Assembly: GCA_025054775.1 (NCBI GenBank)
Contig: JANWZA010000023.1
Span: 1 to 60,670 of the forward strand
Source of the DNA: Microscillaceae bacterium
Lineage (GTDB): Bacteria > Bacteroidota > Bacteroidia > Cytophagales > Microscillaceae
Direction of reading: 5' to 3'
DNA: 60,670 nucleotides
In this document: positions 22,250-49,247 of the stretch, piece after piece
Layout of the letters: each line of letters begins with the position of its first letter
How positions within the stretch are numbered: the first letter of the stretch is position 1
The notes under the pieces: generated by a model
What the model saw: only the letters and a program-made list of their open reading frames with translations
What the model was told of the DNA's origin: nothing
Database searches by the model: none
Position numbers and translations under genes: made by a program

Positions 22250-22258
22250 GATTGCTCA

Positions 22259-22289
22259 ACTTTCCAAGTTTTAGAACTTGGAAAGTTTT
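22259..22289 (+). terminator. Rho-independent terminator of dnaN
   Basis: A perfect 12-bp stem (22259-22270 with 22275-22286), a 4-nt loop TTAG and a short T-run, 9 nt after the dnaN stop. The stem core CTTTCCAAG/CTTGGAAAG recurs at 40704-40730. Confidence 0.8.
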
Positions 22290-27759: not shown

Positions 27760-27796
27760 AGAGGCAAATTTTCTACCCTTAGGAAAATTTGCCTCT
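27760..27796. terminator. Terminator between etfB and the carboxylase gene
   Basis: A perfect 14-bp stem, AGAGGCAAATTTTC (27760-27773) with GAAAATTTGCCTCT (27783-27796), and a 9-nt loop, between convergent genes. It can act in both directions; the T-tract on the plus side is interrupted. Confidence 0.75.
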
Positions 27797-42586: not shown

Positions 42587-43759
42587 TCAAAAGGCTTCAC
42601 CAAGTTCAATATAAAATAAGCCTCCTTCGTGGCTAAGGGCATAATCTATGCGAAAATTTAGGTTATCTTTAGGGCTAAATTTAATACGTAGCCCTACGCC
42701 ATAGGTAGTTTTGAAGTTAGGTAAAATAATTTGCCTTTGCCATACATTGCCCACTCCTACAAAAGTAGCAAAACCAACCCAATCAATTCTTTGGCTGTCA
42801 TAGACTAACGGCAATCGCATTTCTACCTGCCCTGCTAGTAAATGCTTATCTCGGTATCTACCTCGATAGTAGCCGCGCATTAGGCTTTCTCCTCCAAGCT
42901 CAGAGAGTTGCTTGTAAGGAGCTTTGCCAAACACCCAATTTGCATATATTTGCCATGCCAATACCCAAGAATAATTTGCTTTTGTAAGTGTAAAATTATG
43001 AAACTTTCTAAAATCTAACCTACAATTTTGATAATTATACTGGCTTCCTAACCAAGGAAAAGTAGGTAAAAAAATACTTTCTACGTACATACCGCGTTTG
43101 GCATTAGCTATATTATCGCGACTATCATGCACTAGCATTAAGCCCAAGCCCGCAATCGTGCTACCATTGTATCCTGCTATTTGAGAACTTTCCATTAAAC
43201 CATTAGGCTTTAAGTGCATTTGGTATTGTTTCACAAAACGATATTGCATGCCTGTAAACCAAAAACGAGTAACTTGGTATAGAAAACGCGCCTCTATTCT
43301 CAAAATATGATAATCTACAAGTTCACGATGAGAGGCGTTAGTAGAGTCCCCTATACCATAATAGTATTCAGGAAAATGTGATAAGTGCGTACTTAAGCGA
43401 AGGTTAAACTTTTCTTTGTGTGTAAAAACTTGGGTAGTTTGCTGGAGAATGAATTGCTGATTTTGAGTATAATTAAAAAATGCTACTATTAACGATTTTC
43501 TGCAACTATCTTGCCTATGTAACTTGAAAGATGAAAGAGCATTCAGTCCTATTGCCCAGCGCGTTTCAGGAGTGTAATAAAGACTCGGATAAGCAAACAA
43601 TGGTATTTTTTCATACCATTTTCTTTTTGTATCCAAAATTATGCTATCGTTTCTTTGTGCTTTTACTTCCAAATTCCAAAAAAAGAAAATAGCGAAAAGA
43701 AAAATCTTGCTTTTGAGGCAATGAATACCCTTTGAAGCAAGATTTTTTTTGAACGACAT
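42587..43759 (-). CDS. BamA/TamA-like (surface antigen D15) outer membrane barrel protein
   Basis: A 390-aa barrel with no visible POTRA domains. The N-terminus is a signal peptide (NLEVKAQ). The barrel has the D15-type pattern: HDSRDN, AKRGMYVES, GGESLMRGYYRGRYRDKH and the terminal strand YIELGEAF. It likely sits in the outer membrane; the substrate is unknown. It starts just 6 nt after the rpsP stop, so it may be translated from the rpsP transcript. A terminator-like hairpin lies inside its first 20 codons. The true start could be slightly downstream, but no other ATG keeps the signal peptide. Confidence 0.82.
   Translation of the reverse strand: MSFKKNLASKGIHCLKSKIFLFAIFFFWNLEVKAQRNDSIILDTKRKWYEKIPLFAYPSLYYTPETRWAIGLNALSSFKLHRQDSCRKSLIVAFFNYTQNQQFILQQTTQVFTHKEKFNLRLSTHLSHFPEYYYGIGDSTNASHRELVDYHILRIEARFLYQVTRFWFTGMQYRFVKQYQMHLKPNGLMESSQIAGYNGSTIAGLGLMLVHDSRDNIANAKRGMYVESIFLPTFPWLGSQYNYQNCRLDFRKFHNFTLTKANYSWVLAWQIYANWVFGKAPYKQLSELGGESLMRGYYRGRYRDKHLLAGQVEMRLPLVYDSQRIDWVGFATFVGVGNVWQRQIILPNFKTTYGVGLRIKFSPKDNLNFRIDYALSHEGGLFYIELGEAF
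43701..43746 (-). terminator. Terminator-like hairpin inside the 5' end of the D15-like gene
   Basis: AAAATCTTGCTT (43701-43712) and AAGCAAGATTTT (43735-43746) form a perfect 12-bp stem with a 22-nt loop. On the minus strand the stem is followed by a T-rich tract (TTTTTCTTTT). It lies 20-65 nt after the rpsP stop and within the coding sequence of the next gene. It may be a partial terminator or attenuator that limits expression of the barrel. Confidence 0.6.
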
Positions 43760-43765
43760 TGAGTA

Positions 43766-44287
43766 CTAGTTTCCTTGTCCTTGTTGTTCAGTGGTAGTTT
43801 CTGTGGTGGCATTAGCGACTTGCTGAGCAGCAGCTTCTTCTTTCTTACGCAAGGCTTCGGCACGTGCTTCTTTTACTTTGGCTTCAGCTTCTATACGTGC
43901 CTTGAACTCGGCTTCTTTTTTAGCTGCCAAAGTATCTATTTTGCTAGCAATCTTAGCTTGTTTTTGGGCCCACCAAGCTTCATACCTTGCATCAGCTTCT
44001 TCCTGAGTAATTGCCCCTTTGCGAACACCTACTTGTAGGTGTTTTCTGTATAATACACCTTTTTGGGATAAAATAGAGCGTGCAGTGTCTGTAGGTTGAG
44101 CTCCTTCAAGTAACCACTTCAAGGCTCTCTCTTCGTTCAAAGTGATACTTGCAGGATTAGTATTAGGGTTGTATTGTCCTAATTTTTCAATAAAACGACC
44201 ATCTCGTGGTGCACGTGCATCTGCAACAACAATATCATAAATTGCTAATTTTTTGCGACCTCTGCGCGCTAATCTTATTCTTACCAT
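43766..44287 (-). CDS. rpsP: 30S ribosomal protein S16 with long C-terminal tail
   Basis: A 173-aa S16. The N-terminal 80 residues are the ribosomal domain ([32 protein letters not shown]). A charged Ala/Glu/Lys-rich helical tail with a Thr/Gln end adds about 90 residues, as in many Bacteroidota. The usual downstream genes rimM and trmD are missing; an outer membrane barrel gene follows at 6 nt. A -7 box lies upstream. Confidence 0.95.
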
Positions 44288-44371
44288 ATTATTATCGAAT
44301 GTTAAATTTGACGGATCCCGTCCATCGTAAAAATATTGATAAAATATAAGTACTTGTTAAAAAATAGGTTG

Positions 44372-44379
44372 CAAAGATA
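44372..44379 (-). promoter_or_regulatory. Candidate -7 box for rpsP
   Basis: Reads TATCTTTG on the minus strand, matching TAnnTTTG, with a leader of about 80 nt to the rpsP start. A -33 box at the right spacing is unclear. Confidence 0.45.
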
Positions 44380-44480
44380 GTTAGCTTATATCAAATTACC
44401 AAAAAAAAAATGAAAAAAATACTTTCTATCTTTTTGGAAATACTGCGAGGGAGTTGCTAATTAAGAGTTTAGTAAACTAA

Positions 44481-45593
44481 CTAATTTTTAGGCTTCAAGA
44501 ACCGATAGCCTACTCCAAACTCCAAAGTTTCGGCAGAGCCTAGATGTGTTTTCATGGAAAACTGCCCTGTAATGCGATGATTAAAGTAATATTTAATGCC
44601 CAAACGCTGGTAAATAGGCATATTGGGAGAGTCTCCCTCGTAAGGTTTGTAAAGATAAATACCAATTTGCTTTACCAGAGCAATTTTTCCTGCTAGGAGT
44701 TCGTGTCCAACTATCCAAGCAACGCGTCTAAAATCAGGTTGCGGTAGAGGGCTTCTATTTTCATCAATCATAGTTCGGTTAAGGTATGCCTTGATGCCAT
44801 TATTTACATTAAATTCTATACCTATTTGCCATTGACTTTTGCGTGTGCATTGCCATGTAAGCAGAGCATTAGCCGTAAAGGTATAGTGTTTGCGATTTTC
44901 GTTCTCTTCTTGTTCTATCCAGCCATTCAGTATGCCTACACACAGGCGCCATTCTTTTTGAAAAGGTCTTAGGCTGTCTTTTAGCACAATTTGTGAGGCA
45001 AAAGGGGTATAAATTAGCCCAAAGTTGGCATTAAACATGTTGTTACCTGCATTAGGAAGGCTAAAAGCGGCATTAGAAAAATGAACTAAATCAACCCCGC
45101 TGCGTATTTGCCATTGTGGATTAATCTTTTGTTGAAAGGATAAGCCAAAAAACATGCTTGCATTAAGCCGACTGCTTACCTGCGTCTGTCTGAAATTAGT
45201 TTGTAAATCAAAAGGATTTGTAATGTATCCCACTCCTGTCCCAATTTTGAAGTGCAAAGTACTATGTTTGTAACGCAAAAGTTCAAATTTCATATTGGGT
45301 AAAAGAGCAAAGCCATGTCCAAAAAGGCGAGTACGATAATCTACCCAAAATGCACTAACCCCTATGCGTGGGAAGCGATAAGCACTTTCCCAGCCACGTT
45401 CTCCTGTAGGTATTCTATACCAAGAGAAACACAGACCTAAGGGGTGGCTTTCAGAAAGATGGGCAGCACGTTCAGTGCGAACTATCATGCCATAGTGGCT
45501 GTAATACTCTAATTCAAAGTTTTTATATATTTGAGAAAAAACCCAATAATAGTTCTTTAAAAATATAACTATGGTAAATAACAAGTATCGCAT
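44481..45593 (-). CDS. PagL-like acyloxyacyl hydrolase (lipid A deacylase) barrel
   Basis: A 370-aa outer membrane protein similar to Bacteroidota acyloxyacyl hydrolase/PagL proteins, which remove an acyl chain from lipid A. The PagL-like catalytic motif HFSNAAF with PNAGNN is visible in the middle, and many barrel strands surround it. A signal peptide ending in VFSQ starts at the ATG at 45593; 45611 would add six residues. This ATG overlaps the start codon of the divergent TPR gene in a CATG. Enzyme activity is inferred from the His-Ser motif; the protein is longer than classical PagL. Confidence 0.72.
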   Translation of the reverse strand: MRYLLFTIVIFLKNYYWVFSQIYKNFELEYYSHYGMIVRTERAAHLSESHPLGLCFSWYRIPTGERGWESAYRFPRIGVSAFWVDYRTRLFGHGFALLPNMKFELLRYKHSTLHFKIGTGVGYITNPFDLQTNFRQTQVSSRLNASMFFGLSFQQKINPQWQIRSGVDLVHFSNAAFSLPNAGNNMFNANFGLIYTPFASQIVLKDSLRPFQKEWRLCVGILNGWIEQEENENRKHYTFTANALLTWQCTRKSQWQIGIEFNVNNGIKAYLNRTMIDENRSPLPQPDFRRVAWIVGHELLAGKIALVKQIGIYLYKPYEGDSPNMPIYQRLGIKYYFNHRITGQFSMKTHLGSAETLEFGVGYRFLKPKN

Positions 45594-46401
45594 GAGCCAA
45601 TATTTATTCATTTCTTATGTTCTTCTTTTTAGTACGATTGCTAATTATGCCCAACGCACACAAGCCGAAAAATACTTTGCTGAAGCAGAAAAGGCGTACA
45701 AATTAAGGCAATTATCAGAAAGCATGCAACTCTTGAGCCAAGCTATTCAAACAGATAGTACTTTTGCCGAAGCCTATTTGCAACGCGGTTTGTTACATTA
45801 TGAACTCTCCGCATTTGACAAAGCCCTACAAGATTATGATAAGACTTTACAATTCAGACCTACTAGTCCACAAGCTCATTACTACAAGGGAGTAGTGTAT
45901 AGCATTTTGAATCAGCCTGAGAAAGCAGAAAAAGCCTTCCTCAAAGCTCTTACATACAATCCTAAGTATGTAGAAGCATACATTGCTTTGGGTACAACAC
46001 AAGAAGCTCTACACAAACGTCAGGAGGCTATCAAACAATTTGATAAAGCTATTCAACTCAATCCACAAGCAAAATTAGCTTATTTTAACAGGGGTATCTA
46101 TTACTTTAATCAAAAGCAATATTTTAAATCCTTACAAGATTTTCAAAAAGTAGTACAAATTGACAGCAATTTTGTAGAAGCTTACGAAATGCAGGCTGAA
46201 ATTTATACTGAACAAAGAAAATACGCCCAAGCTATCCAAGTTCTCACGGTTTACTTGAAACATTACACCCTTAACAGCCAAATATGGCTAAAACGTGGGA
46301 AATTGTATGCTAAACTAAAAGACAAACCACGCGCTATTGCCGATTGGCTTAAAGCCAAAGAACTTGGCAATGAAGAGGCAGAGAAGTTATTAGCAAAGTA
46401 A
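45592..46401 (+). CDS. Secreted TPR protein divergent from the PagL-like gene
   Basis: A protein of 269 aa from the ATG at 45592 (or 276 from the ATG at 45571). Signal peptide ending in NYAQ, then about seven TPRs (LSESMQLLSQAIQTD, FDKALQDYDKTLQFRP, RQEAIKQFDKAIQLNP). It is likely periplasmic. Its start codon overlaps that of the minus-strand PagL-like gene by two bases, so the promoter of each must lie within the coding region of the other. The 45571 start would increase that overlap. Function unknown. Confidence 0.8.
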   Translation: MSQYLFISYVLLFSTIANYAQRTQAEKYFAEAEKAYKLRQLSESMQLLSQAIQTDSTFAEAYLQRGLLHYELSAFDKALQDYDKTLQFRPTSPQAHYYKGVVYSILNQPEKAEKAFLKALTYNPKYVEAYIALGTTQEALHKRQEAIKQFDKAIQLNPQAKLAYFNRGIYYFNQKQYFKSLQDFQKVVQIDSNFVEAYEMQAEIYTEQRKYAQAIQVLTVYLKHYTLNSQIWLKRGKLYAKLKDKPRAIADWLKAKELGNEEAEKLLAK

Positions 46402-48341: not shown

Positions 48342-49247
48342 TTACCTTCTTGGGCGACTGCTACTCCCCGAAGAACTTCTACTACTGCTTCCAGAAGAAC
48401 TTCTACCAGATGAGGAAGCACCACTGGAGTAGCTACGTCCCGAATTACTAGAGTAAGTACGTCCAGTTGTGTTACTATAAGTAGGCCTTTGTGAAGATGA
48501 GGAGTTGGAATTTATACTGCTTGAACTACTGCGTGGTGCAGTATTTACAGGGTTATTTGTCATATTTGCTCTACGCATTTCTCTACGACTGTAATACCAG
48601 TAAGGACTGTTCCATGAGTTCCAAGTATTCCAAGTATTCCAACTATTCCAAGCATTCCACCTGTTTACTCTACCCCAAGTAAATACCCACCAATTTCCAC
48701 CAATAAAAAGGTCATTTCCAAAGGAGAAGAACAAGGAATTAGGCCTCCAACTGCTAGTATAAAAGGAACTGCAACACGTATTCCATGAACTCCAACCATT
48801 GCAAGGTATATTCCAGCAGTTGCAAGCCGTCGTATTCCAGTTCCAGCAATTACAATTATTCCAACGGCTATTATTCACGTTAGAGTCTCTGTTATTATGT
48901 CGTGGTATAAAAAGGCGTGTATTTCGGTTATAGGTCGTATCATAATACAATCGATTTCTACTTATTTCAGGTTTTTCGTTCTCAAGAGTAGTCTCGTTGG
49001 TTCTACTTGACATGAGATTACTTTCGCTAAGCATTTGCTGCTCGCGTTTTCTCAATTCTTCTAAGTTTGCTTGTACTCTGGCGTACTCATCAACCTCTTT
49101 TCTATCCTTAGAATTGAAATATACGTCGTCATTTTCTATGACTTGACCGCTGTGTTTTAGCCCTGTACATGCAAATAGTCCACTCACTAATACCGCTAGT
49201 AATAAGCTATTAGAAAAGGTTTTATATTTTCGGCTGTTCAAGTACAT
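48342..49247 (-). CDS. Trp/Asn-repeat, Ser-rich-tailed lipoprotein of unknown function
   Basis: A 301-aa lipoprotein with lipobox GLFAC. After the anchor comes a charged helical segment (about 45-85), then a Trp/Asn/Cys-rich part (NNCNCWNWN, CNCWNIPCNGW), a short domain around FFSFGNDLFIGGNWW, a run of WN(S/T) triplets (NAWNSWNTWNTWNSWNS), and an 80-residue Ser/Arg/Gly-rich tail ending in SSRPRR. The start is the ATG at 49247, which gives the lipobox; 49280 is further upstream. The composition is unlike that of any family I recognise. It may be surface exposed. Confidence 0.8.
   Translation of the reverse strand: MYLNSRKYKTFSNSLLLAVLVSGLFACTGLKHSGQVIENDDVYFNSKDRKEVDEYARVQANLEELRKREQQMLSESNLMSSRTNETTLENEKPEISRNRLYYDTTYNRNTRLFIPRHNNRDSNVNNSRWNNCNCWNWNTTACNCWNIPCNGWSSWNTCCSSFYTSSWRPNSLFFSFGNDLFIGGNWWVFTWGRVNRWNAWNSWNTWNTWNSWNSPYWYYSRREMRRANMTNNPVNTAPRSSSSSINSNSSSSQRPTYSNTTGRTYSSNSGRSYSSGASSSGRSSSGSSSRSSSGSSSRPRR
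48608..48660 (-). repeat. 9-bp tandem repeat encoding WN(S/T)
   Basis: Five to six units of a 9-nt motif (TTCCAAGTA and variants on the plus strand), each encoding Trp-Asn-Ser/Thr on the minus strand. A looser 9-nt pattern with WNxCN codons lies at about 48770-48870. Such tracts are prone to expansion and contraction. Confidence 0.75.

Follow-up and report, generated by a model that had tools for sequence, protein, structure and literature searches.

Intercistronic attenuators and partial terminators exist in ribosomal protein operons. The locus described here, in a 60,670-nucleotide stretch of a Microscillaceae bacterium genome (contig JANWZA010000023.1; hereafter the window), resembles these systems in that a terminator-like stem lies between a ribosomal protein gene, rpsP, and a codirectional neighbor, but differs in that the neighbor encodes an outer membrane protein and in that the pairing was seen in one genome only. 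The stem, the T-rich tail and the short distance past a stop codon are also those of known intrinsic (Rho-independent) terminators, from which the rpsP hairpin differs in falling within the 20 opening codons of the following ORF, in its 22-nt loop and in its few G-C pairs. RNA 3′ ends mapped inside ORFs are among the results of a study in E. coli (PMC7815308). As far as that part of the study goes, the likeness is that a transcript may end within coding sequence; here, the putative end belongs to the upstream gene. None of the titles listed in a literature search concerns an rpsP terminator placed over the start of a barrel gene, although such a paper may still exist.

The rpsP hairpin and its counterparts in relatives

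The features that we discuss are as follows:

44372-44402, minus strand: match to a Bacteroidota-type promoter upstream of rpsP, TTG-N20-TATCTTTG (motif scan)
43766-44287, minus strand: rpsP, 30S ribosomal protein S16, 173 amino acids (Pfam Ribosomal_S16, E 3.6e-24)
42587-43759, minus strand: ORF for an Omp85-superfamily barrel, 390 amino acids (Pfam Omp85, E 3e-12, residues 193-375)
43700-43747, minus strand: terminator-like hairpin, perfect 13-bp stem and 22-nt loop (sequence, folding and stem search)
43695-43704, minus strand: T-rich stretch made up of the last part of the 3′ arm and the tail behind the stem (sequence)
43724-43726, minus strand: ATT, codon 12 of the barrel ORF, a possible former or non-canonical start (suggested by N-termini compared by eye)

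The rpsP product scores 240 bits against NCBIfam NF011094 (cut-off 209), and the barrel ORF scores 106 bits against NCBIfam Omp85_fam, under the cut-off of 200. The junction reads TAG TAC TCA ATG, with a shared frame, and bears out the preliminary description, in which the barrel ORF starts 6 nt past the rpsP stop. The hairpin begins 19 nt past that stop and covers barrel codons 5-20, with arms at 43700-43712 and 43735-43747 in which AAAAATCTTGCTT pairs with AAGCAAGATTTTT. The perfect stem with a T-rich tail inside the first 20 barrel codons is thus as first described, except that it has 13 bp rather than 12. On the minus strand the T tract is TTTTTCTTTTC, of which the first five T belong to the 3′ arm.

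Several properties expected of an intrinsic terminator are present, namely stability relative to shuffled sequences, a T-rich tract, and a place behind a gene end that is kept in relatives. The minimum free energy is −19.1 kcal/mol, with z = −3.5 over 86 nt (200 shuffles); z falls to −5.8 for the 50-nt core, and for the 110-nt flank it is unstable with few shuffles (−5.0 versus −2.2). Only 3 of the 13 pairs are G-C, so the stem is not G-C rich. As several other gene-end hairpins of this genome are likewise A-T rich, low G-C content does not exclude a terminator, but it lowers the expected strength, and together with the long loop it suggests that the terminator may be weak. A terminator scan with loops limited to 3-8 nt did not list the hairpin, whose loop is longer.

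To compare rpsP 3′ flanks we anchored them on match positions and added 77 loci from named genomes. Of 131 loci, 114 were usable; 6 duplicates, 10 loci with a 3′ flank shorter than 110 nt and 1 with a broken frame were dropped. Among the 77 loci, which come from further genome contigs, the best full-length rpsP match is 68% identical; L122 reaches 72% over 149 residues and L188, a 40-residue end fragment, 90%. We scored a flank as carrying a T-tailed stem if a perfect stem of at least 8 bp lay within 110 nt of the rpsP stop, with coding stretches of the same length as controls. Such stems occur in 11 of the 12 other family genomes with a readable rpsP flank (0.08 expected from shuffles), in 12 of 37 further genomes (0.16 expected) and in 5 of 64 more distant named loci (0.16 expected), where they are mostly missing. 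Overall, 28 of 113 other loci carry one; shuffles predict 0.40, and the 113 coding controls have none. Values of z below −2 were found in 64 of 113 flanks versus 5 of 113 controls, and in 31 of the 64 named loci. As for conservation of the stem in related rpsP loci, which had been proposed as a check, position and type are kept in those 11 family genomes and the sequences differ, so that what is conserved is the place and kind of stem rather than this particular one. None of the 15 family genomes, this one included, is a congener in which the exact stem could be sought. In four genomes of the family, the 120 nt surrounding the rpsP stop match exactly those of metagenome-assembled genomes labeled Cytophagales (2), Cytophagia (1) and Bacteroidetes (1), which makes an uncultured member of the Cytophagales the most likely source of the window.

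Where the next ORF (at least 100 amino acids) begins less than 20 nt past rpsP, as it does at 43 loci, the window alone has a T-tailed perfect stem (0 of 42 others), and 4 of those 42 have z below −3 without one. A stem reaches or lies inside the next ORF at three other loci: at L043 the last part of the stem contains the first ATG, and an inner ATG, judged by eye, is the better candidate, at L150 the stem has no T tail, and at L166, from a Flavobacteriales metagenome-assembled genome, a T-tailed 9-bp stem 55-90 nt past the rpsP stop occupies early codons of a rimM-like ORF. Overlap is therefore rare in this set, though not without parallel. A rimM-like ORF, assigned by eye, follows rpsP in many relatives, including 4 of the 12 other family genomes; the remaining 8 have no same-strand ORF of 100 amino acids within 400 nt past rpsP. 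The RimM match of the present genome is on a different contig from rpsP.

Judged by its position and shape, and by the position kept in relatives, the hairpin is probably the intrinsic terminator of rpsP, lying inside the first codons of the barrel gene that now stands directly behind rpsP. The preliminary description is supported in that the stem fits an rpsP terminator and runs through the codons for the signal peptide of the following ORF. The data best fit an ordinary terminator stem, with the overlap as the unusual part. RNA polymerase would start behind the promoter match at 44372-44402 and transcribe rpsP; past the rpsP stop the 13-bp stem and U-rich tail would form and most transcripts would be released, with polymerase mostly stopping at the T-rich tract. 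Both termination and its efficiency are predictions from sequence. Given the size of the ribosome, a stem that begins 19 nt past the stop should not be covered by the ribosome terminating on rpsP.

The start of the barrel gene

Counting this genome, in a set that contains many drafts, rpsP was found in 54 of 57 genomes and a barrel match in 39 (38 of the 56 others); a barrel query against the further genome contigs gave no match. When coordinates were compared by eye across the 57 genomes, rpsP and the barrel gene were adjacent in the present genome only, and the nearest pair on one contig elsewhere is about 69 kb apart (G042). The suggestion that the barrel is tied to ribosomal protein output is not supported, and the gene order recurs in no other genome searched.

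The N-terminus of the barrel protein also differs from those of most homologues. Of 29 homologue loci (L002-L030), we compared the 19 in which a signal peptide could be read from the first ATG, and these have 3-13 residues before the hydrophobic core, versus 18 in the window protein. We left out L003, a near copy of L002; L018, L021, L022, L023, L025, L028 and L030, where the N-terminus was unreadable or did not fit; and L007 and L014, where the first ATG gives an N-terminus longer than that of the window protein and inner ATGs are present. Because of these last two, the extension should not be called unique. The barrel is near rpsP in no other genome searched, and its N-terminus here exceeds those of most homologues in length, so the overlap looks like an accident of one lineage in which a relocated gene ran into a terminator.

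Could the start be misassigned, with translation beginning at ATT (43726-43724), which lies in the hairpin loop, and all sequence upstream belonging to the rpsP 3′ UTR? By eye, this codon aligns with the homologue starts MNHLASKILFLFF (L010) and MNRYASKICFLFF (L015), which come from one genus and have similar signal peptides, and starting there would leave an n-region of 7 residues, inside the homologue range. The stretch coding for the residues ahead of it takes in the 5′ arm and some of the loop. ATT is a very rare start codon, and the barrel ORF has an in-frame ATG at a good spacing. In addition, long N-termini are not confined to this gene: among 96 sampled ORFs whose N-terminus is hydrophobic, 11, the barrel included, have at least 17 residues before the hydrophobic core, and three others with long N-termini look signal-peptide-like by eye (at 48342 in the window, 14352 in L077 and 10066 in L078). 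We consider initiation at the ATT unlikely, if the least so of the alternatives discussed here; it is compatible with the hairpin being a terminator, and the odds of the two overlap. Among canonical starts, the next in-frame ATG, GTG or TTG after the barrel ATG is a TTG at codon 30, past the hydrophobic core, so no alternative start of these kinds preserves the signal peptide.

The simplest history would be that the barrel gene moved behind rpsP, and that either its reading frame grew upstream, across the rpsP 3′ UTR as far as the next ATG, or rare ATT initiation persists. If the hairpin is the rpsP terminator, the barrel gene would in this lineage have landed behind rpsP with a frame that opens at an ATG ahead of the terminator, and rpsP 3′-UTR sequence would then be read as an N-terminal extension of the barrel signal peptide. 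The annotation lesson is that a gene start 6 nt past rpsP crosses what is probably the terminator of rpsP, a warning of a possible error in the barrel start, in the operon call or in both.

Long stems in coding sequence and at gene ends

Background frequencies were taken from 355 kb of the same genome (the window plus 16 stretches longer than 5 kb), in which ORFs of at least 100 amino acids with an ATG start were called. Perfect stems of at least 12 bp occur 3 times in 290 kb of coding DNA, the rpsP-barrel stem included, which gives a chance of about 4e-4 of meeting one at a given 60-nt coding spot. The remaining 66 kb hold 9, of which 4 lie within 80 nt past a called gene end, so long stems are not all terminators; one further stem is mixed. 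The window has 3 stems of at least 12 bp, versus 0 in 6 Markov-generated windows. Elsewhere in this genome, a perfect 14-bp stem at 2244-2287 of L071 lies in coding sequence away from any called gene end.

The next alternative, which we also regard as unlikely and place after initiation at the ATT, is that the stem is a by-product of coding, with A-rich Lys codons of a signal peptide followed by T-rich Ile, Phe and Leu codons that pair by chance and no termination. In favor of this account, 59 of 4000 synonymous versions of the peptide's code reach a fold energy as low; among 257 sampled ORF starts of this genome the energy ranks only about 11th. The T-tailed stem in early codons after rpsP at L166 can be read in the same way. 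Stem length argues against it: only 1 of 4000 recodings has an arm of 13, and among the 257 ORF starts, taken over their first 81 nt, no other has one, the rpsP-barrel stem being the longest and the runner-up having 8 bp. Moreover, the stem stands behind rpsP, where nearly all other family genomes carry a terminator-like stem.

Gene-end hairpins, defined as z below −3 in the first 70 nt behind an end, are found at 14 of 86 convergent ends and, among codirectional pairs, at 10 of 82 with gaps of at least 100 nt, 7 of 48 with gaps of 30-100 nt and 2 of 29 with gaps under 30 nt; mid-gene controls gave 11 of 257. In the last group of pairs the rpsP hairpin is the strongest (z = −6.5; next −3.2). 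By these statistics the stem is terminator-like, yet placed where tightly spaced genes seldom carry one. Five other stems of at least 10 bp near gene ends in the window begin 9-27 nt past the end. Two perfect stems in the window are likely terminators of plus-strand ORFs, one of 13 bp at 22258-22287, 9 nt past the ORF and with a poor T tail, and one of 14 bp at 27760-27796, 19 nt past.

Other origins for the hairpin were rejected: no plus-strand gene was seen to end at the site, where the plus-strand stem has −23.2 kcal/mol and eight T, and a search of the genome with the hairpin gave no further convincing copies of a repeated palindromic element; besides the site and its reverse arm (E 0.005) it hit only 11 stretches of 15-32 nt, each with E of at least 0.06. 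Rfam had no match up to E 1 across 43300-44600.

Transcription of the barrel gene

The promoter match upstream of rpsP follows the two-box consensus of Bacteroidota. It is the only full two-box match, and the only exact −7 box, between 44500 and 43760. In this genome, 20 of 165 upstream regions carry the two-box motif, as do 8 of 165 of their antisense strands and 2 of 235 mid-gene stretches; for the −7 box alone the counts are 89 of 165 (150 nt upstream), 41 of 165 and 34 of 235. No exact TAnnTTTG lies between 44379 and the barrel ATG. A promoter inside rpsP was rejected, as there is no exact −7 box there; one-mismatch sites lie at 44234, 44145, 43955 and 43934, and the one at 43955 is suitably spaced from a TTG. 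Because the exact −7 box is also missing from 76 of 165 upstream regions, its absence before the barrel gene proves little. With no consensus promoter for the barrel and no alternative start that keeps the signal peptide, expression by read-through from rpsP is plausible, and the barrel would be supplied either in this way or from an off-consensus promoter. If supplied by read-through, it would probably be made at a low level.

It is also conceivable, albeit more doubtful than a by-product of coding, that read-through is regulated, with a ribosome restarting at the barrel ATG covering the 5′ arm of the stem and blocking the terminator, so that barrel output tracks rpsP translation. The geometry fits, as the 5′ arm is nt 13-25 of the barrel ORF; no other exact promoter or usable ATG, GTG or TTG start was seen for the barrel; and the rpsP hairpin is the strongest of the closely spaced codirectional pairs. 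Against this, the gene order is in no other genome searched, a single case cannot show selection, and tight coupling of ribosome and polymerase would be required. A ribosome starting at the barrel ATG could favor read-through. Less credible still is the fuller version, in which one stretch serves as both rpsP terminator and barrel signal-peptide code and initiation on the barrel switches the terminator off, deciding its transcription. Were the overlap functional, nature would here offer a simple design by which a gene's transcription depends on whether its own translation is initiated. As no conservation stands behind a regulatory link, a functional connection between the outer membrane protein and ribosomal output is unsupported.

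Upstream of rpsP, a PagL-like gene (minus strand) and a TPR gene (plus strand) are divergent, and their 5′ ends overlap by 41 nt (45571-45611), which leaves no promoter room between them. In-frame inner ATGs of both genes lie within one CATG at 45591-45594.
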